A DNA stretch of 64,000 bases from Muribaculum sp. An289 (GTDB lineage Bacteria; Bacteroidota; Bacteroidia; Bacteroidales; UBA932), in the NCBI RefSeq assembly GCF_002159555.1, contig NZ_NFIV01000002.1:1-64000 (forward strand). Direction: 5' to 3'. The notes under the pieces are model-generated. The model searched no databases, was not told the DNA's origin, and worked only from the letters and a program-made list of their open reading frames with translations. Within the stretch, counting starts at the first letter, position 1, and each line of letters starts with the position of its first letter. Position numbers and translations under genes: made by a program. Shown here one piece after another: positions 15,404 to 61,157 of the stretch.

Positions 15404-15574
15404 TACACCTCACAGTTAGCTATCATTCTTGTAATATATTGATATTCAATATTTTACCAAAATTACCCCTGCGCTTGGGTGCCTCGTGAAGTACCCAAAA
15501 GCAGCCCGTGTTTTTGCAAGTTATTGAATATCAATCATTTTTAAAAAGCCTGGGTGGACGTGGGGTGGAAAAAT
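15404..15574. repeat. palindromic intergenic repeat, copy A
   Basis: One of four copies of a roughly 175-bp element. Outer ends: CACCTCACAGTTAGCTATC on the left and GGTGGACGTGGGGTGGAAAA on the right, which are near complements. Inner AT-rich arms contain ATTGATATTCAATA-type inverted blocks. Central hairpin: CTGCGCTTGGGT, a 12-nt loop, ACCCAAAAGCAG. Copies B, C and D are at 30594, 57540 and 60984. Confidence 0.8.
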
Positions 15575-15721
15575 ATGTCGATAGAATCCGTGAGTTCCTC
15601 TTCCGGCCATTTTCGGCAGAGATGCTGTTTCTTTGCTCGCTTCAAAAAAGTTCCTTGTTTTACGAAAACTTCTTTCCGCGCTGAAGTTCTTTCCGCACTG
15701 AAGGTCGGCCTGATGCCGAGG

Positions 15722-17446
15722 CTATGGCCGTATTTCGGCTGCACCGCAGACCTCGGTGGATATTTCGCCTATCCAGCCCGCTTTGGCATTCACGCCCGTG
15801 CATATCTTGATGAAGTCGATGTATGCGAGCCTTGCCGGTTGGCCGTCGAAGGTTACAGCATCGCTGATTCTGAAACGGTTGGTACTTGCATTTCCTTCGG
15901 CCGATACCCCGTAGCCGTCGGCAATTCCGTCCCTGTCGACAGGACTGTAATTGTCGGCATATCCCCATTCGTATTCATGGTTTATCCAGTAGTTGGGGGA
16001 GGATTCCTCGGTATTTGGGGCGAGCCTTGTGCCTGTCAGAGTGTATGAGCCGGCCTTTACCCATCCGGGATAATAATAATCCTGCGTGTGTACCCCTGAA
16101 ATATAGTCTATGGTTCCGGTATTCCCGAGATTGTCTTCCCATTGTACCGGCATCTGCGGGGCCGATGGTCTGTAGTAAGTCACTTCATAGTCGTTAAGGG
16201 TTCCAGCTTTTCCGTATTCGCTTCCCTTCAGTTCGTACCAGATGTCATTCGGCAGGCCGTCCCCGTTTTCATCCTGCATCACCCAAACTATTCCGGGTTC
16301 TGAAGAACCCTGGTAGGAGTTTCCGGTAATGCCGAAATCGTAGTCTCCCGAATTTTCTATACTGTGGTCGAATCCTAAGACGATATATCCTCCGAAGCCG
16401 CCGAGCGAAACGTATTTTCCTTCACTCAGCCTGCTTTCGGCGTATGCTGTGGCTTCATCCATGGTTCCGGCATTGAAGTCCTCATTGATGAACTGTCCCG
16501 GTGCAGGCATGTATTCGTAAACTCTGTCCCACAGCAGATTTCCGGTGGCAGGCCTTTTATATGTGCCTTCAGGCGGGCATACTATGACTGCAAGTGTCTT
16601 GCTGACAGTCGTATATGAGTTAGACATCGTAATGACGGCCGTATATGTGTCCTGTTCCGAGGCAGTGTATTCCGGAGCGGTGAAAACATATTGCGGCGCA
16701 TCGGAAGACTGTACTTCCTCGCCATTTATTTTCCAGGTATAGACAGCGTCTTCCGCGTTCTTTATGCCGAAAGGCACAAGCCTGATGCGCCTGCCTGAGG
16801 AAACATAGTACGTATCTTTTTCGAAGTTCCATTCGAAAGGTATGTCGGCCGGGTCAAGCACATTGACTGTGAATGATTCGGAGTCGCTCCCGTCCTCATT
16901 GCCTACCGTGAGCGACATGGAATATGAGCCGATTCTTTCCCCTGTGAAAACATAACTCTTCTCCGAGGATACTTCTTTTCCGTCCAGAATCCATGAAAAT
17001 GCGGCGTTCTCACCGTTTTTCACGACAGGAACGATTTCAAGCGAGCCTCCGACAGGGATATTGTATCCCCCATCGGGAACATTCAGCGATATTACTGGAA
17101 CCTGCCGGCTTGCCACGTCTATGCGTATTTCTTCCGAATCGCTTCCGGAATTGTTCGTTACCGTCAGCATTATATAGACACTTCCTGGCTCTTCGAAGGT
17201 GTGCGAGAAGATTTTATCGGTTGATAGCAGAATCCCATCCGACTCCCATTCGAAAGAGGCGCCCTCGCCGTTTTCCACCGCAGGCTCTATCGTTATCTCC
17301 TTTCCGGCCTTTGCCGTGTAGATGCTTTCGGCAAATTTTATTACCGGAGGAAGGCCTCTCTTTTCGGTGCACGACAGTGACGTAAATACTGGAACGGACA
17401 GGAGCAAGGCCTTTATAATGAATGCTATGTGGTTTGACTGTTTCAT
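15722..17446 (-). CDS. PKD-repeat surface lipoprotein of the B12 locus
   Basis: A 574-aa protein with a lipoprotein signal (SLSC, Cys about 26). Three Ig/PKD-like repeats follow (about 30-115, 116-200 and 205-290), each with a W-centred strand (FEWESDGILLST, FSWILDGKEVSS, YTWKINGEEVQS) and a closing YTMSL/YIMLTV-type strand. The C-terminal 280 residues form a separate domain with an acidic metal-like loop (DENGDGLPNDIWYELKGSEY) and DRDGIADGYG. It is the last gene behind the cobalamin riboswitch, BtuB and the BtuG-like protein. I infer a surface-exposed role in binding cobalamin, a cobamide-bearing complex or a scaffold; no direct evidence. Confidence 0.75.
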   Translation of the reverse strand: MKQSNHIAFIIKALLLSVPVFTSLSCTEKRGLPPVIKFAESIYTAKAGKEITIEPAVENGEGASFEWESDGILLSTDKIFSHTFEEPGSVYIMLTVTNNSGSDSEEIRIDVASRQVPVISLNVPDGGYNIPVGGSLEIVPVVKNGENAAFSWILDGKEVSSEKSYVFTGERIGSYSMSLTVGNEDGSDSESFTVNVLDPADIPFEWNFEKDTYYVSSGRRIRLVPFGIKNAEDAVYTWKINGEEVQSSDAPQYVFTAPEYTASEQDTYTAVITMSNSYTTVSKTLAVIVCPPEGTYKRPATGNLLWDRVYEYMPAPGQFINEDFNAGTMDEATAYAESRLSEGKYVSLGGFGGYIVLGFDHSIENSGDYDFGITGNSYQGSSEPGIVWVMQDENGDGLPNDIWYELKGSEYGKAGTLNDYEVTYYRPSAPQMPVQWEDNLGNTGTIDYISGVHTQDYYYPGWVKAGSYTLTGTRLAPNTEESSPNYWINHEYEWGYADNYSPVDRDGIADGYGVSAEGNASTNRFRISDAVTFDGQPARLAYIDFIKICTGVNAKAGWIGEISTEVCGAAEIRP

Positions 17447-17530
17447 TTTTCTGTAATCGTATATTTTTTCTAAACGTATATTTCTGCTAATCGTATATTC
17501 CGGTAAACGTTTATAAATGTTTAAAAACGG

Positions 17531-18694
17531 TTATTTCAGGGAATGTGTGGTGAAAACGATGTGTGCTGGGATGTCCCCTGTCGTGACGGCCCATTTCCAG
17601 CGGCCGTCGAGGGTGAAGCAGTGGAGGGTTCCCGGGCTTACGTAATCCTTTGCATCCGTCACGAAAAATTCTCCTGAGCTGCGGTTTACGGCTATCCCGT
17701 ATGGAATCCTTATCTGGTTTTCCATGCCGTCTTTAATGAAATTGCGGGTTACGATGCTCTTTGTGGCCGTGTTCCATATCGCGTAAGATATTTCATTCCT
17801 GCCCGTAATGTAATTGTACTCGGAACTGATGACGAAGAGGGAGTCTCCGGCAAGCGCCATTGAGCTGTTGGGCAGGAGGTCGAGCGTATCCGTCACCCTG
17901 TCCGTCCGCGTATCGATTATGAAAGTCTTGGATTGGATGGTATAATGGTCTCCCCGCGAGGATACGTAAAGGTTTCCGTAATTGTCCGGCTCTATCTTGT
18001 CGAGGTTTATGCCGACGTTTATCTTGTACATTTCTTCGAATGTGTCGAGATTTATGACAGAAATAGTGCTGTCGTAATCCGGTGCCCGGTATCCGCCGGA
18101 ATTGGCGACATACAGTTTGTTCCCGACTACCGCCATTTCTTCGGGCTGGTAACCCACTATGCACGAATCGACTATCCGGAGCGAGGCCGTGTCTATCTTT
18201 GCGACGAAGCCTATCCTCGCATCGGTCGCTATTTCGACGGGCCCGGCGTATGCGCTTACGTATGCGTAGCCATCGTTGAACGCGACATAGCGGCAGTTAG
18301 GTATGGCTATTTTGGAAAGATGTTCGGCGGTAGAGGCATCCATGACCTCCACGTAGTTTGAACAGTTTATCACCGCCCACAGTTTCCCACCGTATATTTT
18401 CAGGTCGTTCCCGACATCGCCGAGGTCCTTCACTTCGTTGGGATTGCGTTCTCCGTAAATATTCCTGTGGTAGGTGCCGTCTTCATACCCGTAATAATCC
18501 AGGGAGGCCTTGTTGCTGCCCATATTCCCTTCGTTCAGCAGGAAAAACCCCCTTATGTCTCCGCTTATACTGTCCCACGGGTTTATGACGATTTCTTCGC
18601 CCGGCAGGATATAGTCCGGTTTCCTGCATGAGAAAACTACAAGCATTATCGCCGTGGCGGCGCATATTCTGATGAAACCTGTTTTCCTTCGCAT
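17531..18694 (-). CDS. btuG: BtuG-like surface cobalamin-binding beta-propeller
   Basis: A 387-aa lipoprotein (FSCRKPD, Cys23) with a YncE/DUF5074-type beta-propeller. Repeating blade segments include GKLWAVINCSNYVEVMDASTAEHLSKI, NKLYVANSGG and STISVINLDTFEEMYKI. In gut Bacteroides the family BtuG is a surface lipoprotein that binds vitamin B12 extremely tightly and caps the outer-membrane transporter BtuB. The assignment rests on fold type, lipoprotein signal and position directly after btuB under a cobalamin riboswitch. The gap to btuB is 83 nt and to the PKD gene 84 nt, so all three are probably one transcript repressed when B12 is plentiful. Confidence 0.85.
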   Translation of the reverse strand: MRRKTGFIRICAATAIMLVVFSCRKPDYILPGEEIVINPWDSISGDIRGFFLLNEGNMGSNKASLDYYGYEDGTYHRNIYGERNPNEVKDLGDVGNDLKIYGGKLWAVINCSNYVEVMDASTAEHLSKIAIPNCRYVAFNDGYAYVSAYAGPVEIATDARIGFVAKIDTASLRIVDSCIVGYQPEEMAVVGNKLYVANSGGYRAPDYDSTISVINLDTFEEMYKINVGINLDKIEPDNYGNLYVSSRGDHYTIQSKTFIIDTRTDRVTDTLDLLPNSSMALAGDSLFVISSEYNYITGRNEISYAIWNTATKSIVTRNFIKDGMENQIRIPYGIAVNRSSGEFFVTDAKDYVSPGTLHCFTLDGRWKWAVTTGDIPAHIVFTTHSLK

Positions 18695-18777
18695 TTTATA
18701 GTGTTCCTGTATAATGATTTTAAACTTAAACGTTTTTGCAATATCCGGTAAAATCAGTATGTGTTTTTATTTGAAAA

Positions 18778-20892
18778 TCAGAAACTCAGGCTCAGTGTCA
18801 GCCGGAAATTCGTCCCTGGCATCGGGTACCATTTGACTACTTCGTACTGCTGGTCGAATATGTTGTTCACGTCCAGGGCGGCCCCGAGTTCCATCCCGTG
18901 CGGCAGGGAGAAGGTCTTGGCAAGCGAAAGATCGCTGGTATACCAAGGCTGGATATAATTCACCGGTATGTTCCCTCCCAACATCCATCTTTCTCCGGTA
19001 TAGATGAAACTGTAGTTGAGGCTCCAGGTCCTGTATGTGCAGTTAAGCACCGCCGAACCGCTGTGTACCGGGACGTACGGAATCTGGTCTCCGTAATGGT
19101 CCTCCACTCCGGGCCCGAAGTCCCCGCCTTTCTTCTCTTCGGTAAAATCCTGGGCCTTCTGGAACGTGTACGAGAGCCTTGCCGTAATCCCTACTTCCCC
19201 GAATCTGAACGAAGGCGCCAGGCTTACGTCCACGCCACGTATTTCAACATATCCGAGGTTTACCATGGTCCAAACCAGCTGGTTGGAAGTCGGGGTGGCT
19301 ATGATTTTGTCCTTCACTGTGTTGTAATACCCGTCCGCACTTGCTTCGATGCCGGCGAACACGCCTTTCGCGAAGCCCTTCCTGTATGCGATTCCCAAAT
19401 CGTACTGGTCCGTGTATTCGGGCTTCAGGTTCCTGCTTCCCGCCTGGACGTAATAAAGGTCGTTGAATGTCGGCATCCGAAATATTTTCTTATAGAATGC
19501 CCTGAATGTCAGGTCCGTCTTTTTCCACGGCCTGTATGAAACCACTGCCGCAGGGGCGAAGATGTTCTTGTCTTTTGCCGGTTCTATGTCCTTGCGTTTG
19601 CCCATGTCGTGTACGTACGTGTAGAGCAGGCTTGCCTGCAAATCCAGTCCGCAGTCGAGGTTGAACGATGTCGCGAGCGCGGCAAGCCCGGTAATCCTCC
19701 GCGGCTGTATGAAGTTGGCATTGAACATGTCGCTTCCTTTCGCATCGAGGCTGTTCCATTGCAGGTCCGCTGAAATGTTGATATGCCAGAAGTAGAACGG
19801 GGAAAACAGGTGCGAGGTGGTAAAATACAGTTCCTGCTGCCAGTAGTGGTTGTCCATCGGCTGCACCGTGCTTTCCGGCGGCATTACGTAGTTCATGTAA
19901 TCGTTGGAATACTTGGCCCTGAAGCGGTAGCTGTACGATTTGCTGACCGTCTGTGTCAGGGAAGATTGCAGGAAAATGTTCCTGTCCTTCTGCCTGTCTT
20001 CGTTCAGCAGCGATATTCCGTAGTCCTCCTTTACCGCCGCTCCCGGATAGCCCCTGTCCGAGTTGTAAAAATATATTTTCGCATCCCAGTCGCCTCCCCT
20101 GATTTTTCCGAATACGGCGGCTTCGGCCCTTATCGAGAACACGTCCCCGTTCCGCCGCACTTCGGTGGTGTCGTATCCGCCTCCGTCAGGTCCTGTCTTG
20201 CTGTAACGGAATTTATACCTTCCGGAAGTGTTCATCACTTCGGCGTTTACTGAAGTGCTTATGCTTTCACTGATTTTATGGTCCCAGGTGAACGAACCGT
20301 CTATGAGGTCGAAGGACCCTGTCCTTATCTTAAAATTGAAATTGTAGTTTTTGTCCGTGAAAACAGGCCGTCTGCTCGTCATGTAAAAGGCTGCCGCGGA
20401 AGCAAAATCCTTTGCCGACTGGAAAATGTCGCTCTTCTGTCCGTTATATACCGAAACGGCTTCCATGTTGTCCAAAGAAAATTTTCCGAGGTCTACCGTC
20501 CCGTTCTGTGCGTTCCCTATCTGTATCCCGTCATAGAAGACACCGACATGCTGGCTCCCGAGGCTTCTGACATTGATGGTCTTGAGGCCTCCGATGCCCC
20601 CGTAGTCCTTGATCTGCACTCCCGAAAAATATCTGAGGGCATCGGTGACTGAGTTGCTCCCGAGCCTTTTCAGCTGCTCTCCCCTCAAAGTCTGTGACGG
20701 GATTATTTCTGTTCTCCTGACGGCGGTCAATGTTGCCTGCCCTAAAGTGTCCGTCACGATTGCGAGGCTGTCGGGAAACGGATACTCCTGCATGCCGTCG
20801 TCAAGTGGCGCACGCATCGGGGCGGCTCCGGTGGCGGCCGCTGTCCAGAAAAATATGATTGCCGATAATAATACTGTCTTCTTCATTGCCAT
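18778..20892 (-). CDS. btuB: TonB-dependent cobalamin receptor BtuB
   Basis: A 704-aa outer-membrane receptor: signal peptide (about 1-23), plug domain (about 40-170; GSNSVTDALRYFSGVQIKDYGG, SLGSQHVGVFYDGIQIGNAQNG) and a 22-strand barrel ending in F. A TonB-box-like segment lies after the signal (TLGQATLTAVRRTEI). Imports cobalamin to the periplasm with TonB energy. Start choice: ATG at 20892 (MAMKKT) or 20886 (MKKT); the longer frame to 20952 runs into the riboswitch. The cobalamin riboswitch 59 nt upstream identifies the substrate. No btuCDF genes occur in this window. Confidence 0.92.
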   Translation of the reverse strand: MAMKKTVLLSAIIFFWTAAATGAAPMRAPLDDGMQEYPFPDSLAIVTDTLGQATLTAVRRTEIIPSQTLRGEQLKRLGSNSVTDALRYFSGVQIKDYGGIGGLKTINVRSLGSQHVGVFYDGIQIGNAQNGTVDLGKFSLDNMEAVSVYNGQKSDIFQSAKDFASAAAFYMTSRRPVFTDKNYNFNFKIRTGSFDLIDGSFTWDHKISESISTSVNAEVMNTSGRYKFRYSKTGPDGGGYDTTEVRRNGDVFSIRAEAAVFGKIRGGDWDAKIYFYNSDRGYPGAAVKEDYGISLLNEDRQKDRNIFLQSSLTQTVSKSYSYRFRAKYSNDYMNYVMPPESTVQPMDNHYWQQELYFTTSHLFSPFYFWHINISADLQWNSLDAKGSDMFNANFIQPRRITGLAALATSFNLDCGLDLQASLLYTYVHDMGKRKDIEPAKDKNIFAPAAVVSYRPWKKTDLTFRAFYKKIFRMPTFNDLYYVQAGSRNLKPEYTDQYDLGIAYRKGFAKGVFAGIEASADGYYNTVKDKIIATPTSNQLVWTMVNLGYVEIRGVDVSLAPSFRFGEVGITARLSYTFQKAQDFTEEKKGGDFGPGVEDHYGDQIPYVPVHSGSAVLNCTYRTWSLNYSFIYTGERWMLGGNIPVNYIQPWYTSDLSLAKTFSLPHGMELGAALDVNNIFDQQYEVVKWYPMPGTNFRLTLSLSF

Positions 20893-20950
20893 TATCCTTT
20901 CCCATTCTCCGCAGGAATCACGAAACCGTACATACGGTCTCTGAACAAAC

Positions 20951-21132
20951 ATGCAACGGCAGGTCTCCTGGCTCGTCCCGGCCGCAACGCCTTCCCATCG
21001 TTCTGACAGTGGCTGTCGAGTGTGCGGCCTTGCCCTTTTGCAGGGCGGGACTTACAGTAGCGGGAACTGCATCCGGATTTCACGGATTTCCCTTTTATTC
21101 GGCGACTCCGGCCGGAGCCTCCGAAACCGTTA
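20951..21132 (-). promoter_or_regulatory. cobalamin (AdoCbl) riboswitch
   Basis: Read on the minus strand, the conserved cobalamin aptamer blocks occur in order: GGGAAATCCGTGAAATCCGG, then GCAGTTCCCGCTACTGTAA, then the P-stem CCCGCCCTGCAAAAGGGC, then GCCACTGTC...GGGAAGGC and the B12 box GAGCCAGGAGACCTGCC at about 20977-20961. It sits in the leader of btuB, so B12 binding should shut off btuB and probably the two downstream lipoprotein genes, by hiding the ribosome site or ending transcription. Confidence 0.96.
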
Positions 21133-21138
21133 CGGTGG

Positions 21139-21170
21139 GCAAAGATATGCAAAAATGCAATAATGAACAA
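21139..21170 (-). promoter_or_regulatory. promoter of the cobalamin uptake operon
   Basis: On the minus strand TTG (21170-21168), a 20-nt spacer, TATCTTTGC (21147-21139). The predicted start near 21132 coincides with the first base-paired segment of the riboswitch. Confidence 0.75.
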
Positions 21171-21256
21171 AAATTTCAAACGGCTTCTCAAAAGTCCGGA
21201 ATAATTTCGCATATTTGCATGAATATTCCTTAATCGTGATTATTCCTTTTATTTTT

Positions 21257-22255
21257 ATGATGATGAAGAACGGACATTTTTTGAAATTGCTGGATTTCAC
21301 GCCTGAAGAAATCCTGCATTTGGTGGACCTGGCGGAGGCCTTCAAAAGGGACAAGGCCGCCGGTGTGATGCCTAAACATCTGGAAGGCAAGAATTTTGCC
21401 CTCATTTTCGAGAAAGATTCCACGAGGACCCGCTGTTCATTCGAAGTGGCGGCAAACGACCTCGGAGCACATACGACCTATCTCGGCCCTTCGGGTTCCC
21501 AGATAGGAAAGAAAGAGAGTATCCCGGATACGGCAAGGGTGCTCGGAAGCATGTATGACGGCATAGCTTACAGGGGTTTCGGCCAGGATAGGGTAGAGGC
21601 TCTGGCAAAATATGCCGGAGTGCCTGTCTGGAACGCGCTTACCAACGAATCGCATCCTACGCAGATTCTTGCGGATTTGCTGACGATGCGGGAGGCTTCC
21701 GGCCGGCAGTTCCGCGGGATGAAGTTCTGCTATCTCGGCGATGCCCGCTACAACATGGCCAATTCACTGATGGTCGGCATGGCCAAGATGGGGGTTGATT
21801 TCAGGATAGCGGCGCCGCAAGGTTTCTTCCCGGACAGCCGTCTTGTTGCGGAATGCCGCCGGATAGCTGACACCACCGGAGCGAGGATAACCGTAACGGA
21901 CAATGTGGACGAGGCCGTGAAGGGCTGCGATTTCCTCTATACCGATGTCTGGGTGTCGATGGGAGAGCCGTGGGAGGCCTGGGAAGAGCGCATATCTCTG
22001 ATGCTCCCTTATCAGGTCAATGCGGCCGTAATGTCGAAATGCCAGAATCCGGACGTCAAGTTCATGCACTGTCTTCCTGCATTCCACAATCTGGAAACCG
22101 AGACAGGAAGGAAGGTGTACGAACGCTTCGGCGTATCCGAGCTCGAAGTTACCGAAGAAGTATTCGAGAGTCCTGCCTCGATTGTATTCCAGGAAGCGGG
22201 AAACAGGATGCATACCATAAAGGCGGTGATGGCGGCCTCGATAGCCGGGTTATAG
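21257..22255 (+). CDS. argF: ornithine carbamoyltransferase
   Basis: Forms citrulline from ornithine and carbamoyl phosphate for arginine synthesis (or the reverse in the deiminase pathway), cytoplasmic trimer. A 332-aa protein with the carbamoyl-phosphate motif STRTR (about 54-58), HPTQ (about 133-136), the ornithine-specific SMG loop in [15 protein letters not shown] and the catalytic HCLPAFHN (about 272-279). The SMG loop argues for ornithine rather than N-acetyl- or N-succinylornithine, the substrates of the variant many Bacteroidota use. Three consecutive in-frame ATGs (21257, 21260, 21263) make the exact start uncertain. No other arginine genes are adjacent. A hairpin terminator follows. 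Confidence 0.92.
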
Positions 22256-22288
22256 GAGAGGTCACAGTAATATTTTTACACATAATGA

Positions 22289-22320
22289 GGATGCCCGGTG
22301 TTTCGGGCATCCATTTTGTT
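22289..22320 (+). terminator. terminator after argF
   Basis: GGATGCCCG (22289-22297), loop GTGTTT, CGGGCATCC (22304-22312), then ATTTTGTT. It lies between argF and uvrB, so uvrB probably has its own start or depends on read-through. Confidence 0.7.
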
Positions 22321-22334
22321 CTATCGCACAGTCT

Positions 22335-24338
22335 ATGGATTTCAAGATCAATTCAGCATACAAGCCTGCCGGAGACCAGCCCCAGGCAATCGAGCAGATA
22401 ACAAGGCTCCTTGGGGACGGGGCCGATGCCGTTACCTTGCTCGGCGTTACCGGCTCGGGGAAGACCTTTACCATGGCCAATGTGATAGAGCGCATGAAAA
22501 GGCCGGCCCTCATCCTTAGCCACAACAAGACACTTGCAGCGCAGCTTTACGGCGAATTCAAGTCATTTTTCCCGGATAACGCCGTGGAATATTTTGTTTC
22601 ATATTACGATTATTATCAGCCGGAAGCGTACATACCGACAACCGATACCTATATTGAAAAGGACCTCAGTATAAACGAGGAGATAGAGAAACTCCGCCTT
22701 TCCGCCACGTCCGCCCTGCTTTCCGGCCGCCGGGACGTGATTGTGATTTCGAGCGTGTCGTGCCTTTACGGCATAGGCAACCCGGAGGATTTCCATGCGC
22801 AGATGGTTTCCGTACGCAGGGGCGACAACATTTCACGCAACAAATTGCTGTATTCTTTGGTGGATGCACTTTACAGCCGTACCGAAGGCGAGTTTACGAG
22901 GGGAAGTTTCCGGGTGAAGGGCGATGTCGTGGATATTTTCCCGGCTTACGGCGACTATGCCTACAGGATCGAGTTTTTTGGGGACGAAGTCGAGGAAATC
23001 AGCATGATAGAGCCGGTCACTTCGATGAAAATCGATACCTTGGAGCAGGCCGTAATCTTTCCGGCAAACAATTTCGTGACTACCAAGGAACGTTCCATAA
23101 AGGCCGTATCCCAGATTCAGGATGACTTGCAGAAACGTTACGGATATTTTATGGAAATCGGAAAGTCGCATGAGGCCAACAGGCTGAAACAGAGGGTAGA
23201 ATATGATTTGGAAATGATTAAGGAGATGGGCTATTGCCCGGGGATTGAAAATTATTCCCGCTATTTCGACGGACGTGCCGAAGGAATGCGTCCGTTCTGC
23301 CTCATAGACTATTTTCCCGACGATTTCCTTACATTCATAGATGAATCGCATGTCACCCTTCCGCAGATAAGGGCTATGTTCGGCGGTGACCATTCGCGCA
23401 AGAACATTCTCATCGATTACGGCTTCCGTCTCCCGGCCGCTGCCGATAACAGGCCGTTGAAGTTCGAGGAATTCGAGGAAATCACGGGTCAGACAATCTA
23501 CGTCAGCGCGACTCCGGGGGATTATGAGCTGGAGAAAACCGGCGGTGTCATTGTCGAGCAGGTCGTAAGGCCTACCGGACTTCTCGACCCGCCGATAGAG
23601 GTAAGGCCGATTAAAAACCAGATTGACGACCTGATGGAAGAAATCCAGTTGCGCATGGAGAGGAACGAGCGCGTGCTTGTCACCACTCTGACGAAGAGGA
23701 TGGCTGAAGAACTTGACAAATATCTGAACCGTGCGGGCGTGAGGTCGCGTTACATACACTCGGACGTGGATACTCTGGAAAGGGTGGAAATCATAGAGGA
23801 CTTCAAGGCGGGCAGCTTTGACGTGCTTGTCGGGGTTAATCTCCTGAGGGAAGGCCTCGACATCCCTTCGGTATCGCTTGTGGCCATCCTCGATGCCGAC
23901 AAGGAAGGCTTTCTGAGAAGCGGCCGCTCGCTGACACAGACGGCAGGCCGGGCGGCGAGGAATGTAAACGGCCTTGTAATAATGTATGCCGATACCATAA
24001 CCGGTTCCATGAAGGAGACCATAGACGAGACTAACCGCCGCCGCGAGAAACAGCTGGCCTACAACAAAGAGCACGGCATTACGCCGAAGCAGGTCGAAAC
24101 TAAGATGAATTCCCTTGTAGCCGCATCTTCTTCGAAGTCCCAGAGGGCCTACTGGCAACTTGACGAAGCACCTTCGCTTTTGAATGATCCGGTGCTGTCG
24201 AAAATGAGCCGTGCAGAACTGGAAGAGGCCGTACAGGCGGCAAAACAGAAAATGGAAGAGGCGGCCAAAAACCTCGATTTCGTCAGTGCGGCGAAATTCA
24301 GGGACGAGATGTGGAAAATCAAGGACATGATTAATTGA
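22335..24338 (+). CDS. uvrB: excinuclease ABC subunit B
   Basis: Damage-verification helicase of nucleotide excision repair; it receives DNA from UvrA and recruits UvrC. A 667-aa protein of normal length. Walker A GVTGSGKT is at 37-44, the DNA-opening beta-hairpin region YYDYYQPEAYIPTTDTYIEK at about 93-112, DESH at about 337-340, and helicase motifs VLVTTLTKRMAE and QTAGRAARN later. A C-terminal UVR coiled coil (about 627-662) binds UvrC or UvrA. First gene of uvrB-rel-uvrA; the next gene starts 10 nt after the stop. Confidence 0.97.
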   Translation: MDFKINSAYKPAGDQPQAIEQITRLLGDGADAVTLLGVTGSGKTFTMANVIERMKRPALILSHNKTLAAQLYGEFKSFFPDNAVEYFVSYYDYYQPEAYIPTTDTYIEKDLSINEEIEKLRLSATSALLSGRRDVIVISSVSCLYGIGNPEDFHAQMVSVRRGDNISRNKLLYSLVDALYSRTEGEFTRGSFRVKGDVVDIFPAYGDYAYRIEFFGDEVEEISMIEPVTSMKIDTLEQAVIFPANNFVTTKERSIKAVSQIQDDLQKRYGYFMEIGKSHEANRLKQRVEYDLEMIKEMGYCPGIENYSRYFDGRAEGMRPFCLIDYFPDDFLTFIDESHVTLPQIRAMFGGDHSRKNILIDYGFRLPAAADNRPLKFEEFEEITGQTIYVSATPGDYELEKTGGVIVEQVVRPTGLLDPPIEVRPIKNQIDDLMEEIQLRMERNERVLVTTLTKRMAEELDKYLNRAGVRSRYIHSDVDTLERVEIIEDFKAGSFDVLVGVNLLREGLDIPSVSLVAILDADKEGFLRSGRSLTQTAGRAARNVNGLVIMYADTITGSMKETIDETNRRREKQLAYNKEHGITPKQVETKMNSLVAASSSKSQRAYWQLDEAPSLLNDPVLSKMSRAELEEAVQAAKQKMEEAAKNLDFVSAAKFRDEMWKIKDMIN

Positions 24339-24348
24339 TGCAGGAACG

Positions 24349-30593: not shown

Positions 30594-30768
30594 GTTTTTC
30601 ACCCCATAGCCATCTTGCTTGTTTTGGGTGTGTTGATAATCAGTGTGTTATGGAAATGCGGGCTGGCTTTGGGTGCTTTTTGAGATACCCAAGCGCAGGT
30701 GTGATTTTTGTAAAGGGTTGGTTATTAATGTGTTGCAAAAATGATAGATGGCTATGAGGTGAAAAATT
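30594..30768. repeat. palindromic intergenic repeat, copy B
   Basis: Same family as copies A, C and D. Left end TTTTTCACCCCATAGCCATC, right end GATGGCTATGAGGTGAAAAA, nearly perfect complements. Central hairpin CTGGCTTTGGGT, 12-nt loop, ACCCAAGCGCAG. Right-hand flank TGCCGGCAAAATCCGA is shared with copy C, and the left flank has a related GGATTCCGCCG, so the element may extend about 15 bp further. It lies between divergent genes. Confidence 0.82.
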
Positions 30769-30857
30769 TGCCGGCAAAATCCGATTCATACCTACTTCCT
30801 CGGTGTTTCTGGCCTCCCGAAAAAGTGATTTCCAAAGTCTGTTAACGATAAAATCGT

Positions 30858-52582: not shown

Positions 52583-52588
52583 CGGGCC

Positions 52589-53326: not shown

Positions 53327-53343
53327 TGGTGTGAATTTTGTGG

Positions 53344-53352
53344 TATATTTGC
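53344..53352 (+). promoter_or_regulatory. promoter core of rsfS operon
   Basis: TATATTTGC, 22 nt before the ATG at 53375; -33 not convincing. Confidence 0.55.
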
Positions 53353-53374
53353 CCCCAAATTTAGTGTTTTTAAA

Positions 53375-53746: not shown

Positions 53747-55763
53747 TGACAACAATACGGGCATGCCGCAGGGCAAAGGTCCGAATTTCCGTAAGATACG
53801 TTTCAATTTTACCTGGATATACATTCTGATAACCGTTGCCGTCCTTGCAATGTTTTTCAACAACAGGGGGGCGAATCCGCAGAAGAAGGAGTGGGCTGAC
53901 GTGAAGGAGTACGCTCTGGCCGGCGATATAGACAAGATAGTATATATAAGGAATGAATACAAAGGCGAGGTCCAGATAAAGAAGGACAGCCTTCAGAAAT
54001 ATTCGGCGCTTTTCGGGGGGCACATACCAAATAAGCCTCCTCACATACTTTTCCTGGTTTCCGATAAGTTCGATCCGGAGACGGCTTTCGAGGAAATCAA
54101 TTCGGTATTGAACGAGGAGGGCAAACCTTCGGTCGAGGTAGTGATGGAGCAGAAGCGCGATATGTGGGGGATACTCAACTGGTTCATTTTCCCGCTGCTC
54201 ATACTGGTGCTGTGGTTCTTCATGTTCCGTGGTTTCAACAAGGGCGCCGGTGCCGGAGGAGGTCCCGGCGGAATCTTCAATGTCGGGAAATCTACGGCCA
54301 AGATTGCGGAAAAGAGCCTGATGAAGGTCACTTTCAACGATGTGGCCGGTCTTGCCGAGGCGAAGGTGGAACTCAACGAGATTGTGGATTTTCTCAAGAA
54401 TCCGAAAAAATATACTGAACTCGGCGGCAAGATTCCTAAGGGAGCTTTGCTGGTAGGGCCTCCGGGTACGGGAAAGACCCTGCTGGCGAAAGCCGTGGCC
54501 GGGGAGGCCGATGTGCCTTTCTTTTCTATGGCCGGTTCCGATTTCGTGGAAATGTTCGTCGGCGTGGGAGCATCCCGCGTGCGTGACCTTTTCAAGCAGG
54601 CCAAGGAGAAAGCCCCGTGCATCGTGTTCATAGACGAAATAGACGCCATCGGACGTGCAAGAAGCAAGAACGGTGGCTTTTCCGGGAATGACGAGAGGGA
54701 AAATACGCTTAACCAGCTGCTTACCGAGATGGACGGTTTCGGTACGAATTCCGGAGTGATAATCCTTGCGGCCACTAACCGCGTGGACATACTGGACAAG
54801 GCCCTGATGAGGGCCGGGCGTTTCGACCGTCAGATTACCGTTGATCTTCCGGAGCTGGCCGACAGGGTGGAACTTTTCAAGGTCCATACTCGGAAACTCA
54901 AGATAGCATCCGATTTCGATCCGGATTTCTTTGCCAAGCAGACTCCGGGATTTTCGGGCGCGGACATAGCCAATATATGTAACGAAGCGGCATTGATTGC
55001 GGCCCGCAAGTCGAGAAAAGCCATAGAAAAACAGGATTTCCTCGATGCGATAGACCGCGTTGTAGGAGGTCTCGAGCGCAAGAGCCTCGTAATGACACCG
55101 GAGCAGAAAAAGGCCACAGCTTACCACGAGGCGGGCCATGCCATGGTGCATTGGATGCTGCCTAAAGCCGATACGGTCCTGAAGGTTACGATAATCCCGC
55201 GCGGCAATTCGCTCGGCGCTACATGGTTCCTTCCTGATGAACGCCATACCCGCTCGAAGGGCGAGCTGCTCGACGAGATGGCCACGCTTGTGGCAGGAAG
55301 GGTAGGCGAGCAGATGTTCACCGGAGAGATTTCGACAGGTGCGGCAAACGACCTCGACAGGGCCACGAGCATGGCTTACAATATGATAATGGTTTACGGC
55401 ATGGGAGAATCCGTTCCGAATCTATCATACTATGGGCTGATATCGAACGGCAACATCGGGACCAAGCCGTTCAGCGACAAGACGGCCGATGAAATAGACA
55501 AGGAGGTGCGTTCCATGGTAGATACTGCCATAAGCAGGGCTTCCTGCATCATTGATAGCGGGAAAGACAATTTCGTGCGCCTGGCCGAACTACTTTATGA
55601 AAAAGAGGTGATTTTCGCAGAAGATATAGAGGCTATCCTCGGCCCTAAGGTAAAACCGCCGGCATCAGAAGCGGCGGATGTGGCTAAGGATTCGCCTGCT
55701 GAAAATTCGCCTGATGAGAATTCGCCTGATGAAGATGCGGCAACGGAGGAGAACAACGGGTAA
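53727..55763 (+). CDS. ftsH: ATP-dependent zinc metalloprotease FtsH
   Basis: Inner-membrane AAA+ protease that removes damaged membrane proteins and regulators. A 678-aa protein with two membrane helices (about 30-46 and 152-170) around a small periplasmic domain, the AAA module (Walker A GPPGTGKT about 248-255, IDEIDAIG, second region of homology [18 protein letters not shown]) and the zinc site HEAGH (about 470-474). A Gly-rich stretch ([10 protein letters not shown]) follows helix 2. The C-terminal tail has near repeats [17 protein letters not shown]. Alternative ATG at 53736. cdsA follows after 21 nt. Confidence 0.97.
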
Positions 55764-55784
55764 CCGAAGAAAAATTTTACAGAG

Positions 55785-56624
55785 ATGAATGCTACATTGA
55801 AAAGGACGATAACGGGTGTAGGGATTGTAGGGGTCACTTTGGCTTCGCTGCTTTTCAGCGAATACGTTTTCGTCCCCGTGATGTTGTTCGCCATGCTTGC
55901 CTGCCTTTCGGAATTTTACAGGATGACGGTCCCGGGAAAGTTCCGGATGGCCAAATGGCTGGCCTACATGGCTGCCGTCCTGTTGTTCCTGTTCACATAC
56001 TTCCACATGTCTTTCCCGTACTATGTCAGCATGAAGCTGATTCTGCTTGCGGTAATACCTTTGGTAGTGATTCTTGTGGCCGGCCTGTTCATACACGATG
56101 CCGATGATTTCGACAGTGTGGCCTATCTGTTTACCTCCCAGGTGTACATAGCCCTTCCTTTCGTGTCGATGAACTTGCTGGTTTTCGATGATTTCGGAAA
56201 CTTCGACGGACTCATACTGATTGGCTTTTTCATAATTCTTTGGGCTTCGGACGTGGGTGCCTATCTTTTCGGGATGTCTTTCGGCCAGAAGCACGGGCAC
56301 AAGCTCTTCCCCTCGATTTCCCCGAAAAAATCGTGGGAAGGTGTCTGGGGCGGCCTCTTCGTGGCTCTCATTTCCGGAGTGCTGCTGAAAAAATACTGGA
56401 TGTTCGGTTTTCTTCCTTGGTGGGCGGTAATTTGCCTGACATTGATTATCTTTGTATTCAGTGTTTTCGGAGATTTGGTTGAATCGAAGCTCAAAAGGCA
56501 TTTCGGGGTCAAGGATTCGGGAAATATCCTGCCCGGACACGGGGGAATGCTCGACCGTTTCGACGGGGCCTTGATTGCCTTTCCTGTCGGCGCCATTTTT
56601 CTGATAATTTTTAATTTCATCTAA
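55785..56624 (+). CDS. cdsA: phosphatidate cytidylyltransferase
   Basis: Makes CDP-diacylglycerol from phosphatidic acid and CTP at the inner membrane, the branch point to phosphatidylserine, phosphatidylethanolamine and others. A 279-aa protein with about eight hydrophobic segments and the CDS signature GDLVESKLKRHFGVKDSGNILPGHGGMLDRFD (about 228-259), plus SPKKSWEG (about 180-187). Paired with psd downstream, the two acting in the same phospholipid pathway; the phosphatidylserine synthase gene is not here. A 16-bp tandem duplication overlaps its stop. Confidence 0.95.
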   Translation: MNATLKRTITGVGIVGVTLASLLFSEYVFVPVMLFAMLACLSEFYRMTVPGKFRMAKWLAYMAAVLLFLFTYFHMSFPYYVSMKLILLAVIPLVVILVAGLFIHDADDFDSVAYLFTSQVYIALPFVSMNLLVFDDFGNFDGLILIGFFIILWASDVGAYLFGMSFGQKHGHKLFPSISPKKSWEGVWGGLFVALISGVLLKKYWMFGFLPWWAVICLTLIIFVFSVFGDLVESKLKRHFGVKDSGNILPGHGGMLDRFDGALIAFPVGAIFLIIFNFI

Positions 56625-56647
56625 TGGTAAGTTCATCTAATGGTAAG
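56616..56647 (+). repeat. 16-bp tandem duplication at the cdsA/psd junction
   Basis: TTCATCTAATGGTAAG occurs twice with no gap (56616-56631, 56632-56647). The first copy contains the cdsA stop. Its period is not a multiple of three and it inserts a frame-shifted copy of the junction, but psd begins downstream at 56660. Confidence 0.85.
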
Positions 56648-56659
56648 CGGAGGTCTATT

Positions 56660-57331
56660 ATGAAGGTACACAGGGATGGTTTAGGAACGATTTTGGTGGC
56701 TTATCTCGGTGTCTTGGCTATCTGCGGAAGCGTGATTTATTTCGTAGATTGCCTTGTAATCAGGATATTCGCCGGTATCGTAGGTGTTGTTCCCGTGGCA
56801 TTCCTTCCGTATTTCTTCCGTGTGCCCAAGAGGGAATGTATTTGCGAGAACGGGCTCGTTACTTCTGCTGCCGATGGAAAAGTGGTGATAATCAAGAAAG
56901 TATACGAGGGAGAACATTTGAGGCGCGAGGCCATTCAGGTTTCTGTTTTCATGGATTTCTTCAATGTACATGTCAATTTTTATCCCCTTTCCGGGATTAT
57001 AACTTATTTCAAATACCATCCGGGAAAATATCTGTTGGCTTTCAAGCCCAAGGCTTCCGAGGAAAACGAGCGTACTTCCATAGGAATGAAGTGCTTCAAC
57101 GGGCAGGAGATACTCTTCCGCCAGATTGCAGGCACATTTGCGCGGCGCATAGTGTCTTATGCGGAAGTCGGTGACGAGGTCGAAGGCGCAACCCAGTGCG
57201 GACTGATTAAGTTCGGCTCGCGTGTGGATATTTTCCTTCCTGTCGATGCGGAAATCTGTGTCCAGCTCGGCGAGGAGGTAAGGGCCTGCGAGACAGTCAT
57301 AGCCAAACTCTCCAGCTGTCCCGAGAACTGA
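56660..57331 (+). CDS. psd: phosphatidylserine decarboxylase
   Basis: Makes phosphatidylethanolamine. A 223-aa pyruvoyl enzyme of the short (archaeal-like) type: two membrane segments near the N-terminus (about 10-45), then the catalytic part with SVFMDFFNVHVNFYPLSG (about 98-115) and the self-cleavage site KFGSRVD near the C-terminal fifth, where the Gly-Ser bond is cut to form the pyruvoyl group. Start chosen at 56660 because GGAGG sits 6 nt before it; an ATG at 56624 would add 12 residues and lies in the duplicated 16-bp repeat. Last gene of the operon. Confidence 0.93.
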   Translation: MKVHRDGLGTILVAYLGVLAICGSVIYFVDCLVIRIFAGIVGVVPVAFLPYFFRVPKRECICENGLVTSAADGKVVIIKKVYEGEHLRREAIQVSVFMDFFNVHVNFYPLSGIITYFKYHPGKYLLAFKPKASEENERTSIGMKCFNGQEILFRQIAGTFARRIVSYAEVGDEVEGATQCGLIKFGSRVDIFLPVDAEICVQLGEEVRACETVIAKLSSCPEN

Positions 57332-57539
57332 CGTTCCCTGCCATCGCGGGGGCTGTTACCCTCATGCGATTCCGAGCGCTGACTTTCATGCCATTACTGG
57401 GTCAAGTTTCCTGCCATCGCGGGGTTATTTCGCATTATGGTGTTACCGTGCTGGCTTGCAACTGTGTTACAGGCTGCTTGAAGGCCTGTTTTTGATTGTG
57501 TCGCTGATTGTGCAGGCCAGTATCTTACAATTTTGTGAA
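57332..57539. other. gene-free spacer with a direct repeat
   Basis: CCTGCCATCGCGGGG occurs at 57337-57351 and 57410-57424 (73-bp period), each followed by related short words (TGTTACC, CATGCGATT / CGCATTATGG). No gene is supported. The stretch continues into repeat copy C. Confidence 0.55.
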
Positions 57540-57715
57540 AAATTTCACCCCATAGCCACTTTGCTTTTTTTAGAAGTAACTAATAATCAATAACTTACGA
57601 AAAATAGGGCTGCTTTTGGGTGCTTTCTGAGGTACCCAAAAGCAGGAGTGGTTTTGATAAAATACTGATTATTAAATACTTACAAAAATTACAGATGGAC
57701 GTGAGGTGAAAAATA
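57540..57715. repeat. palindromic intergenic repeat, copy C
   Basis: Same family as A, B and D. Left end TTTCACCCCATAGCCACTTT, right end AGATGGACGTGAGGTGAAAA. Central hairpin perfect: CTGCTTTTGGGT, loop of 12, ACCCAAAAGCAG. AT-rich arms TAATAATCAATAACTTA and TACTGATTATTAAATACTTA flank it. Followed by TGCCGGCAAAATCCGA as in copy B. Confidence 0.85.
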
Positions 57716-57738
57716 TGCCGGCAAAATCCGAGTTTGGA

Positions 57739-57795
57739 GCGAGTTAAATTTTGCTAAATCATTAAAAATCAGTATTTTACTAAAATTCAACTCGC
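57739..57795. repeat. imperfect palindrome next to copy C
   Basis: GCGAGTTAAATTTT (from 57739) pairs imperfectly with AAAATTCAACTCGC (to 57795) over about 25 bp. The inner part repeats ATCAGTATTTTACTAAAATT of the repeat-family arms, so this may be a second, truncated copy lying against copy C. The broken transposase gene starts 95 bp further on. Confidence 0.6.
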
Positions 57796-57889
57796 TTGTA
57801 AATAGTCATTAAAAAATCCCCCAGAGAAATCATAAAAAAGGGACCATACGATACATTCGGTATAGCTTTGAAAAAAGCGAGAAAAAAGA

Positions 57890-59215
57890 ATGATAAGTAT
57901 GGACAAGAAGCAACAGATTTTACATTACTATCGTGTAGACAGACTTAGTCTACGAGAGATCTCACGGCGTGTATCATTGGACAGGAAGACAGTCCGTCGG
58001 ATAGTCCGGGGCTACGAAGAGGCAGTGGCTCAGGATCCTGAGACCGGCGTAGAAGACTATCTGTCGATGGTTCCTCGTTACAGAGGCTCATCCAGACCGC
58101 CGCGAGTTCTGACGGATGCGGTAATCAAGGAGATAGATCGCTGGTTAAAAGAGAACGATCGCCGAAGTCGCAACGGGATGCGCAAGCAGTGCCTGAAAAA
58201 GAAGGACATCCACAGGGAGCTGGCATCAAAGGGGTTCAAGGTCAGTTATCCTACGATATGCCGTTACATCCGCAGGAAACAGGAGAGCCTGATGATGGCC
58301 GTATTCGCCTTCCCCTTCAGCAAGGGTCGATTTGCCTATCTGTTCCACCGCCAGGATACTTTGGCATTCATGGAGGCGCACCGTAACTTCTTCCGGAACG
58401 TGGAGGGCGTCCCGCGTACCATGGTGTACGACAATATGCGGGTTGCCGTCGTGTTTGACAACAAGGAGAAACGTCCTACGGAAGCCCTGATGCGGCTGAG
58501 CACTTTCTACCGGTTCGGTTTCAGGTATTGCAATGCCCGGGCGGGATGGGAGAAAGGCGATGTCGAGCAGGGTGCCATCGGGAGCAGGGGCATGGAATAT
58601 CAGTGGGGAAGGAAGGATCCGCTGTTGCCGAGCCTGATGTCTTATGAAGATTGTGCCGTTTTGGGCGACTATGATTACGAGACAAATAATTGCAATGTCG
58701 GCGACGGGACGGGAAAATGGGATTATGCCCTTCCTATGGAACATGCCGACAAGGCTCTCGGAAATGCCTGCATGGCGGTGCTGAACCCGATGAGTTTCAT
58801 AATGACGAATTTTTATGTGGAACCTGTCAAGCCTTACGATTGGTTCTGTATGAATCCGGATGCCGGGGCGTTCCTGTGGGGTGATGATATCTCTATGGAC
58901 AAGACCATCTTCGATCCGTGCCCGGCCGGCTACACCGTGCCTTCGGCTTCTGCCTGGACGGCAGGAGAGGCTTTCGAGCCCGGCGATTTCGGCATTACGG
59001 TTTCAGGGATTTTCTGGCCGTTTACAGGTTATAGGATTACCTATTCCGGCAATCACGACGGGACGGACGAATACGGATATTACTGGACACGCAGCATGTG
59101 TCCGGAGGAAGGGTCGGAAGGCCGGAGCCTGTATATGCAGGCGGACGCTTCCGGTATGGAACTTCCTTTCGAAGGCAGGGCCATGCCTATGGCCGTGCGT
59201 TGCGTGAAGATGTAG
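57890..59215 (+). pseudogene. broken IS21 IstA transposase fused to a secreted-protein C-terminus
   Basis: One open frame of 441 codons joins two unrelated parts. Residues 1 to about 228 are an IS21-family IstA: helix-turn-helix (about 8-45, LSLREISRRVSLDRKTVRRIVRG), YDN (Asp181) and KGDVE (Glu226). The segment with the first catalytic Asp (DWG block) is missing between RRKQES and LMMAVFAF, and the C-terminal third is absent. From about 232 the chain is a FISUMP-like C-terminal domain of secreted Bacteroidota proteins: EYQWGRKDPL, DPCPAGYTVP, YYWTRSM and the end MAVRCVKM. Without its signal peptide this part cannot be exported. No istB is adjacent. Probably a deletion scar, not a working gene. 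Confidence 0.8.
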
Positions 59216-59225
59216 ATACTTGTGT

Positions 59226-59259
59226 GTACTGAAACGACTCATGCGTACTAGAACGACTC
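59226..59259 (+). repeat. 15-bp direct repeat pair after the chimera
   Basis: GTACTGAAACGACTC (59226-59240) and GTACTAGAACGACTC (59245-59259), two mismatches, period 19. IS21-type elements carry short repeated binding sites at their ends, so this could be a leftover IS end; not proven. Confidence 0.55.
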
Positions 59260-59260
59260 G

Positions 59261-59345
59261 GAGAGAGGACCCGAAAGGAGGAATTTCAAGGCTTGCAGAT
59301 CAAGCGTAATGCTGAAAGTTCCCCTTTTGGTCCTCTCCCCTTTTT
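59261..59345 (+). terminator. long stem-loop before msrA
   Basis: GGAGAGGACC (from 59261) pairs with GGTCCTCTCC (to 59338), enclosing GAAAGGAGGAA/TTCCCCTTTT and an inner hairpin GCTTG-CAGAT-CAAGC, then CCTTTTT. Ends the chimeric locus and may also serve msrA on the other strand. Confidence 0.5.
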
Positions 59346-59366
59346 CTTCTCACATTTTTTACCCTC

Positions 59367-59879
59367 TCATCCTTTTTTCCTGTATTGCCTTGCCAATATG
59401 AATTTCTGCTGCGGGACGTGGCAGTAGCCGCCGGGATTCTTGTCAAGATAGTCCTGATGGTATTCTTCCGCCCTGTAAAAATTTTTCAGCGGCATGGCTT
59501 CCACGGCTATCGGGGCGGTATAGTCGAGTGAGAGTTTTTCGAGGGCTTCGCGCACGGGCTTCCCGTCTTCGGGGTCGGTGTAGTAAATGCCTGTCCTGTA
59601 CTGTCTTCCGCGGTCTTCTCCCTGTTTGTCGATGCTTGTCGGGTCTATTATTTTGAAAAACAGGCCGAGAAGGTCTTCCAATGGCACTCTTTCAGGGTCG
59701 AATCTTACTTCCACGCATTCCACGGCATCCGGCTCTCCCGTGCAGACCTCCTGGTATGTGGGCGAAACCTGCCGGCTGTTGGCATAGCCGACGACGGTTT
59801 CTTCCACGCCGTCTATCATTTTAAGAAAATGCTCCGCACCCCAGAAGCATCCTCCGGCGAGATAAATCGTCTTGGTCAT
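59367..59879 (-). CDS. msrA: peptide methionine sulfoxide reductase A
   Basis: Repairs the S-form of methionine sulfoxide in proteins. A 170-aa protein with the catalytic GGCFWGAEH (Cys11 nucleophile, 9-17) and the conserved block EVRFDPERVPLEDLL, GRQYRTGIYY and AEEYHQDYL. No signal peptide is present, so cytoplasmic. C-terminal cysteines are few (GGYCHVPQQ), giving a likely resolving Cys about 151. It is 11 nt downstream of the NlpE-like lipoprotein gene on the same strand and probably shares its transcript. Confidence 0.94.
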   Translation of the reverse strand: MTKTIYLAGGCFWGAEHFLKMIDGVEETVVGYANSRQVSPTYQEVCTGEPDAVECVEVRFDPERVPLEDLLGLFFKIIDPTSIDKQGEDRGRQYRTGIYYTDPEDGKPVREALEKLSLDYTAPIAVEAMPLKNFYRAEEYHQDYLDKNPGGYCHVPQQKFILARQYRKKG

Positions 59880-59890
59880 TGTCCCGGGGT

Positions 59891-60595
59891 TTATTCGGTT
59901 TTTCTTGCGTACCTGATTTCCACGCCGTCCCTTATAACGGTCAGGGAGTCGGCCGTGAGGCCTTTTATCAACAGTGTGTCGGTAAAATCAATCGTCTGCC
60001 CGTTTCCTATGCTTTTTCCTTTCAGAAACAGGATGTTGTCTATCCTGTCCCACTGCTCGTATCGGAGAGTGGCCATGTTTATCGATTCGGCGGTACCGTC
60101 TTCCTTCAGTGAGACTCCCTGGGTCTGTCCTGACATTCCCGGTACCGGTTCGACCCAGTCGCCGGTCAGGTAAGCGCCGTCATTCCCGTCAGGCCACAGG
60201 ATTTCTCCCCCAGGTTTTAATGTATAATTGCCGGCAAGGTCTCCGGTGATTTCATTTCCTTGACGGTCAAGCCATTTCAGTAGTCCGTCCACGGCTTTCA
60301 GCAATGTCGTGTCGTTCTCATCCGAGATGAGCGTGAGCCTGTCCCCGGAAACGGTGTATTTTCCTTTCTCCTGATAGGCGCTGTTGCTGCGGTCAATGTA
60401 CACTCTATCAATGATATAAGTGCCGTTAGTGTCAAGTCTCAGGATCGTGTTTATACCCGGGCAGTCGGCTGCCGGCATTATTGCATGGTATGTTCCAGAA
60501 TATCCTGCCTCGCTGTTGCCGTTCTTGCAGGATGCCACCGCTACGATTGCCAGTGCCAGCGCGGTGAATTTGATGAAAGAAAATCCGGTTTTCAT
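59891..60595 (-). CDS. NlpE-like lipoprotein with lipocalin-type C-domain
   Basis: A 234-aa protein with a lipoprotein signal (VASC, Cys23). Residues about 31-110 match the NlpE N-terminal module (YSGTYHAIMPAADCPGINTIL, LDTNGTYIIDRVYI), which in E. coli reports envelope and copper stress. Residues about 145-230 look like a small lipocalin/META-type barrel (LTGDWVEPVPGMSGQTQGVSL, YEQWDRIDNILFLKG). Upstream of msrA by 11 nt, which suggests an envelope oxidative-stress theme; that link is inference. The E. coli NlpE CxxC motif is not seen. Confidence 0.78.
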   Translation of the reverse strand: MKTGFSFIKFTALALAIVAVASCKNGNSEAGYSGTYHAIMPAADCPGINTILRLDTNGTYIIDRVYIDRSNSAYQEKGKYTVSGDRLTLISDENDTTLLKAVDGLLKWLDRQGNEITGDLAGNYTLKPGGEILWPDGNDGAYLTGDWVEPVPGMSGQTQGVSLKEDGTAESINMATLRYEQWDRIDNILFLKGKSIGNGQTIDFTDTLLIKGLTADSLTVIRDGVEIRYARKTE

Positions 60596-60728
60596 AATTT
60601 TTCTGTTTCTGTTTTTCTGTTTCTGTTGTCTGGTTAAAAATCAATGCTTCCCGGCACCGTATCGCAGCCCGGAAATCAATGCCTGGCCGCTAAAATCAAT
60701 GCCGATTTGCAAAAATAAGAAAAATAGT

Positions 60729-60760
60729 TTTGGATTTATGCGCAAACCTTATATCTTTGC
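60729..60760 (+). promoter_or_regulatory. promoter of tRNA-Gly
   Basis: TTTG (60729-60732), 19-nt spacer, TATCTTTGC (60752-60760), 12 nt before the tRNA. Same layout as the other tRNA promoters. Confidence 0.8.
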
Positions 60761-60772
60761 AATCCCAATCAG

Positions 60773-60845
60773 GCGGAAATAGCTCAGTTGGTAGAGCATC
60801 AGCTTCCCAAGCTGAGGGTCGCGGGTTCGATTCCCGTTTTCCGCT
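60773..60845 (+). tRNA. tRNA-Gly (CCC)
   Basis: A 73-nt cloverleaf: acceptor GCGGAAA with TTTCCGC, discriminator U. The anticodon stem TCAGC/GCTGA encloses TTCCCAA, anticodon CCC, which reads GGG codons. The T-loop is GGTTCGATT. CCA is not encoded. Confidence 0.95.
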
Positions 60846-60983
60846 CAAAATTTACAACTTTTTAAGGCTCAATAACTTGCAAATCATAAAAAACGGTTAT
60901 GCGGGCCTTTTTTCATGCCCTCCCGGCCCTTTTTTCCGCCAATTATGTCCAGTTTTGCCAGGTTTTGTCTCATGGATTCGGAT

Positions 60984-61157
60984 TTTTTCCACCTCACGTC
61001 CATCTGCGGTTTTTGTAAGTGTTTAATAATCAGTATTTTATTAAAATTACTCCTGCTTTTGGGTATTTTCTGAGGCACCCAAAAGCAGCCTGCAATTTTG
61101 CAATACGCTGATTATCAATATATTAATAATAGGTAAGATGGCTGTGGGGTGGAAAAT
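60984..61157. repeat. palindromic intergenic repeat, copy D
   Basis: Family member in the opposite orientation: its left end TTTTCCACCTCACGTCCATC matches the complement of the right end of copy C, and its right end is AGATGGCTGTGGGGTGGAAA. Central hairpin perfect: CTGCTTTTGGGT, loop of 12, ACCCAAAAGCAG. The flank GGATTCGGATT to its left is related to the flanks of B and C. The wider 60846-61351 gap holds no gene apart from this element and a promoter core. Confidence 0.85.

Follow-up and report, generated by a model that had tools for sequence, protein, structure and literature searches.

The window analyzed here, the first 64,000 nucleotides of contig NZ_NFIV01000002.1 (RefSeq assembly GCF_002159555.1, deposited as Muribaculum sp. 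An289), contains four near-full copies of an imperfect palindrome of ∼172 bp, hereafter family A. A preliminary description of this DNA had placed the four copies correctly, between genes and in both orientations, and their boundaries have now been refined with a covariance model (Table 1). The sequences are not restricted to the window: one family-A copy used as a BLASTN query gives 72 matches genome-wide, both strands counted, and profile searches of genome stretches identify at least 55 distinct copies in the 2.32-Mb host assembly (2,322,252 bases in 36 contigs), a lower bound in that a covariance-model search brought extra places, with 90 candidates scored. Profile scores (nhmmer) split into those of ≥105 bits and those of ≤32 bits, a gap wide enough to exclude chance. 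Genome-wide, the copies are non-coding, intergenic, dispersed and found in both orientations, and their pairwise identity is mostly ∼65–87%, so that the family is not young. With a probability of roughly 0.8, we consider family A to be a non-autonomous mobile family resembling REPINs, the doublets of repetitive extragenic palindromic (REP) sequences, and served by a RAYT (REP-associated tyrosine transposase) of the HUH type.

An alignment of 46 copies defines the layout of the element, in which an outer half-stem of the CACCCCATAGCCAGC type is followed by an AT-rich core, a central hairpin (GGGTRC ... GYACCC), an inverted AT-rich core and a second outer half-stem, the central hairpin being conserved as strongly as the outer ends. 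The 12-bp stem earlier ascribed to every copy is perfect (CTGCTTTTGGGT/ACCCAAAAGCAG) in the 57.5- and 61.0-kb copies and contains mismatches in the other two copies of the window. The element has a polarity, with a sharp left edge and a right side that keeps a ∼35-bp tail outside the palindrome, and seven copies have still longer common flanks (an F2-A-F1 composite). Folding of the copies as single-stranded DNA (ssDNA) gives z-scores of −5 to −9; an arrangement of two units each folding alone was rejected, with folding favoring one long hairpin, though unit-level complementarity is visible. Copies that are otherwise alike may carry the central loop as CTTTCTGAGG or, reverse-complemented, as CCTCAGAAAG; one such pair (L006 and L020) has opposite loop orientations and 87% identity outside the loop. 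On a tree of the arms, at least six loop inversions are needed. Homologous recombination would have little length to act on in so short a stem, and hairpin processing or template switching is a reasonable putative route of inversion.

The two cores share a further motif, WATCARNNNNTTR, which we take to be the consensus of the integration host factor (IHF) of E. coli, the host here being a member of the Bacteroidales. The motif is present in all 55 family-A copies (106 sites), where dinucleotide shuffles expect 1.4 copies, and both cores match in >90% of aligned copies. It is found in 11 of 11 full copies of a second family, B; of 371 segments of 172 bp from the window, 7 contain it. The host genome contains three matches to the HU/IHF family, including the gene at G000:C1:45531, and binding of IHF at the core sites is hypothesized from the consensus.

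Six RAYT-like genes are present in the host genome. The RAYT proteins described here (∼283–326 aa) match PF01797, as well as NF047646 below its cut-off, and carry the HUH motif as NHVH and the tyrosine motif as Y(V/C)(L/I/V)RNP. One of the six genes, RAYT-A (G000:C31:65184–66059), lies between family-A copies at 64842–65013 and 66029–66196, which align best as direct repeats (77% identity over 125 bp). Two A copies around one of six RAYT genes would be expected by chance ∼0.005 times, a rough figure for which 55 copies were taken to be spread among ∼1,900 intergenic regions, a number that is itself assumed. A similar arrangement is found at RAYT-D (contig C35, 296 aa), which is located between direct repeats of a further family, D (C35:71151 and 72294; 80% identical over 207 bp). 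Among named genomes, those of Ca. Merdivivens pullicola and Ca. M. pullistercoris encode the proteins nearest to RAYT-D, orthologs with ∼80% amino acid identity; the former (G001; C76:18316–18921) is bracketed by D elements at C76:17857 and 19061, while the latter (G002) is accompanied by D on a single side. When RAYT-D is modeled with AlphaFold (pLDDT 81), the first match in the PDB is 4er8, a TnpA-REP protein with its REP hairpin, and the top matches, of modest score, also include the IS608 and ISDra2 transposases along with unrelated ferredoxin-like folds. Beyond these species, a RAYT of 34% identity in the Bacteroidales metagenome-assembled genome SIG154 is located between 131-bp direct repeats of palindromic hairpin-core-hairpin form that are 87% identical. 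As for the remaining host genes, RAYT-C (contig C32) is located near a family-C element, RAYT4 (L045:2168–3163) shows a more classical layout, lying between two nearly identical 62-bp palindromes (ACCACCGCGCACA...TGTGTGCTCGGTGGT), and a short GGGGAAAGTG...CACTTTCCCC hairpin is found near RAYT5. The non-autonomous, REP-like mobile family envisaged in the preliminary description is supported by the dispersed copies and the RAYT bracketing, and family A is presumably mobilized by a RAYT.

Family A is one of several parallel repeat families in this genome. Family B, often adjoining A, is laid out alike around different stems (GGAGCGAGTT), and families C (CGAAATGTGCAC stems) and D (outer CACGCCCCGACTTAA, inner CACTGTGGATTT) are built on the same plan. 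The stretch at 57739–57795, previously taken for a fragment of family A, is instead half of a family-B element with the stem GGAGCGAGTT/AACTCGCT, whereas the proposed fragment at 403–437 does fall inside a half-element match, though one of only 25 bits.

The host, a chicken-gut bacterium of the Bacteroidales, appears to represent a third species of Ca. Merdivivens, and the families are unevenly distributed across the genus. Family A was detected neither in M. pullicola nor in 28 other relatives searched, and M. pullistercoris contains one diverged A-like copy, beside which BLAST found no RAYT. No RAYT-A ortholog was found in the congeners (best match 51%), leaving RAYT-A in the host genome only. 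Family D and RAYT-D, conversely, are present in all three species, with D dispersed in each; D was not found in genomes G003 and G005. The place orthologous to the 30.6-kb A copy holds a family-D element in M. pullicola, and the 15.4-kb place has 87 bp between alignable flanks in M. pullicola versus 712 in the host and contains other palindromic repeats in M. pullistercoris. A BLASTN search of family A in 59 other relatives returned just two short core matches, and a search of plasmid and phage collections returned none. The TTGATTATCAA core was tried as a family marker in relatives and discarded, its matches being single AT-rich words without stems, several of them just upstream of start codons.

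Several other observations concern the surroundings of the repeats. In two family-A copies at contig ends (L039:1–110 and L025:1617–1722), the repeat gives way to sequence with CTAGTCGACAAAA or CTAGTTGACAAAA, which may represent a mobile element that has inserted there. At 15169–15194 of the window, CTGAGAAAAAATTTTAAGCAGCTTCC, together with the sequence next to it, is similar to DNA beside the A-like copy of M. pullistercoris (L165) and may be where a further mobile element ends. Two copies of a short hairpin repeat, GGGGGAAGTG...CACTTTCCC, are located at 15233–15275 and 15317–15359, and similar hairpins occur beside RAYT5 (L043:921–964) and at the corresponding locus of M. pullistercoris. A cobalamin riboswitch (90 bits) is encoded on the minus strand at 20941–21146.

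Table 1. Positions in the 64-kb window of family-A elements, their parts and related repeats.
Feature	Position	Strand	Evidence
Degenerate half-element related to A, beside tRNA-Cys	384-504	+	Weak nhmmer match, 25 bits, E 1e-6
Family-A element, ∼172-bp imperfect palindrome	15401-15572	+	Covariance model (CM) R1, 166 bits; nhmmer, 146.8 bits
Asymmetric right tail of the 15.4-kb copy, ATATGTCGATAGAATCCGTG	15573-15592	+	Flank listing; conserved right tail
Family-A element	30595-30766	-	CM R1, 168 bits
Flank TTTGCCGGCAAAATCCGATTC, tail-like motif of the 30.6-kb copy, at the end where most copies have no tail	30767-30787		
Family-A element	57541-57713	-	CM R1, 161 bits
Flank ATATGCCGGCAAAATCCGAG, tail-like motif of the 57.5-kb copy, at the end where most copies have no tail	57714-57733		
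Family-B half-element (TTGGAGCGAGTT ... AACTCGCTTG) adjoining a family-A copy	57734-57795	+	Pattern match at 57736; 11 full B copies compared
Family-A element with perfect inner stem	60985-61156	+	CM R1, 171 bits; ssDNA fold z = -5.9
IHF-consensus match AATCAGTATTTTA, left core of the 61.0-kb copy	61028-61040	+	Sequence; consensus enriched in family A
Inner hairpin of the 61.0-kb copy: CTGCTTTTGGGT, 12-nt loop, ACCCAAAAGCAG	61053-61088	+	Sequence, fold
IHF-consensus match AATCAGCGTATTG, right core of the 61.0-kb copy, inverted relative to the left one	61101-61113	-	Sequence; consensus enriched in family A

Two other identities had been offered for the family in the preliminary description. As a miniature inverted-repeat transposable element (MITE), it would derive from a DDE transposon and depend on recognition of its terminal inverted repeats in trans by a DDE transposase, an origin with which the conserved outer inverted ends and the dispersal of non-coding copies among intergenic regions agree. 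Target-site duplications, however, are not above the null expectation (mean longest junction repeat 2.50 versus 2.58, sd 0.29, across family-A copies), and the conservation of the central hairpin on a par with the ends also speaks against such an element. The transposase gene that does have family-A copies on both sides is a Y1/HUH RAYT and not a DDE enzyme, in a search that covered RAYT families and the copies' neighborhoods and was not a systematic one for DDE transposases, and RAYT bracketing recurs for family D in a congener; a DDE-type MITE is therefore improbable. More improbable still is a structured RNA or regulatory element, such as a terminator, mRNA stabilizer or riboswitch-like element, maintained by selection at the transcript level. 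Single copies fold strongly, and 20 of 45 classifiable copies are flanked by convergent genes in a crude open reading frame call, but the same call places 12 between divergent genes. Although scored base pairs are intact in 96.6% of alignment cells, covariation is no higher than in shuffled controls, and the two kinds of end, AG/CT and GT/AC, are paired between the left and right sides as though independently. No copy has a match in Rfam 15, with just tRNAs and the cobalamin riboswitch exceeding the gathering score in the window, and the equivalent spots in the congeners hold a different family or are much shorter.

A third alternative is compatible with a RAYT origin, namely that the elements were spread by a RAYT and then adopted by the host as a chromosomal array of IHF/HU or nucleoid-organizing binding sites, now kept for chromosome function. 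A chromosomal role has been proposed for some bacterial interspersed mosaic elements (BIMEs) of E. coli, and an array of this kind would fit both the two IHF-consensus sites per element in families A and B and the persistence of copies despite the decay of RAYT-A. Since family A is essentially absent from two congeners, such a function would not be conserved across the genus, and family D has not retained the consensus; we regard adoption as unlikely, though less so than either of the identities above.

For the REPIN-like, RAYT-served family that we favor, several points weigh on the other side. In RAYT-A, a frameshift follows the tyrosine domain and the continuing frame contains a stop, with HUH and tyrosine motifs intact; because of this C-terminal lesion the protein may now be inactive and family A a fossil. 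Family A itself is linked to a RAYT by one locus alone, for family B no RAYT partner was found, and the 4er8 match of the RAYT-D model is weak (E-value 1.5e-3). Most REPs are marked by a GT[AG]G tetranucleotide at the hairpin's 5' foot; this sequence is found at 3 of 104 family-A ends, compared to 17 of 104 in a flank control, and family A is accordingly not a canonical REP. The IHF consensus is poorly represented in family D (6 of 20 windows), and its enrichment in families whose copies share descent amounts to one or two independent observations rather than 55. Lastly, the comparison with congeners is one of gap content, made across intergenic DNA that does not align and in which exact empty sites are unreadable.

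The enzyme that copies the REPIN-like family is most probably a domesticated transposase that cuts hairpins. In the proposed mechanism, the palindrome would fold when the DNA is single-stranded, for instance on the lagging-strand template, and the RAYT, as an HUH endonuclease with one catalytic tyrosine, would recognize the hairpin, nick beside it and form a 5'-phosphotyrosine link, after which the strand would be transferred to another intergenic location without duplication of the target. A DNA-bending protein of the IHF/HU family may attach to the pair of inverted cores and draw the outer ends toward each other. RAYT paralogs and families would correspond one to one, with RAYT-A paired to A, RAYT-D to D and probably RAYT-C to C. 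A more specific proposal, which we put forward tentatively and think somewhat doubtful, is that these systems constitute a distinct RAYT class of the Bacteroidales, comprising long RAYTs with a C-terminal helical domain and directional elements of ∼200 bp synapsed by an IHF/HU-family protein at two inverted core sites, in which loop inversion would be a by-product of strand exchange, and separate families, kept by paralogous systems within a genome, would replace each other between sister species.

Family A is REPIN-like and RAYT-linked, with an unusually long, GTAG-less design. It shares with REPINs the doublet of inverted repeats around a spacer, the intergenic dispersal, the link to a specific RAYT paralog and the lack of coding capacity, and its one-sided tail is matched by the asymmetric, single-sided tail reported for putative REPIN intermediates. 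It differs in length (∼172 bp plus tail, versus inter-REP spacings of 71 or 110 bp), in having a central hairpin between two AT-rich inverted cores and no GT[AG]G foot, and in the absence of covariation where compensatory changes have been reported for REPINs. The HUH/Y1 fold of the linked protein and a mechanism via single-stranded hairpins are also those of the IS200/IS605 family (IS608, ISDra2), although the RAYT gene here is single-copy and does not travel with the many dispersed non-coding elements. The Correia/NEMIS elements of Neisseria are likewise palindromic and intergenic, of ∼155 bp, and contain an IHF-binding site (in family A, a consensus only), but belong to another host phylum, have one reported IHF site and inverted ends of insertion-sequence type, and are described there without a RAYT link (PMC2229807). 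BrickBuilt MITEs of Porphyromonas gingivalis are also non-coding repeats of a Bacteroidales genome, though they are described as containing a minisatellite, an array that family A lacks (PMC4596501). A further precedent is TnpA-REP subclass 2.6, or RAYT group 5, of Bacteroidetes, whose genes are flanked by palindromes with "atypical secondary structures" and no GT[AG]G, further copies of which occur elsewhere in the genome (PMC6006769). These proteins share the phylum, the HUH Y1 type and an NH[LIV]H motif with those described here, but have YIH[QN]NP and ∼179 aa instead of Y(V/C)(L/I/V)RNP and 283–326 aa, the repeat structures being compared by description only. The kind of system is thus already known from the atypical repeats noted beside Bacteroidetes RAYTs (PMC6006769). 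Of the earlier statement that no named family could be recognized, the kind now has a name, that of RAYTs with REP doublets or REPINs, while the family itself and its 172-bp architecture are in no library searched. No description of family A's layout, its core sites, its tail or the inversion of its loop was found in the accessible literature.

Experiments on RAYT–REP systems have mostly concerned Proteobacteria, where the hairpins are short and have a GTAG foot. The three sister species described here contain parallel RAYT–element pairs of a much longer, footless design, one of them apparently decayed and one common to all three, opening the questions of how a RAYT chooses its repeats without GTAG, whether a bending protein is involved, and how repeat families turn over between species.

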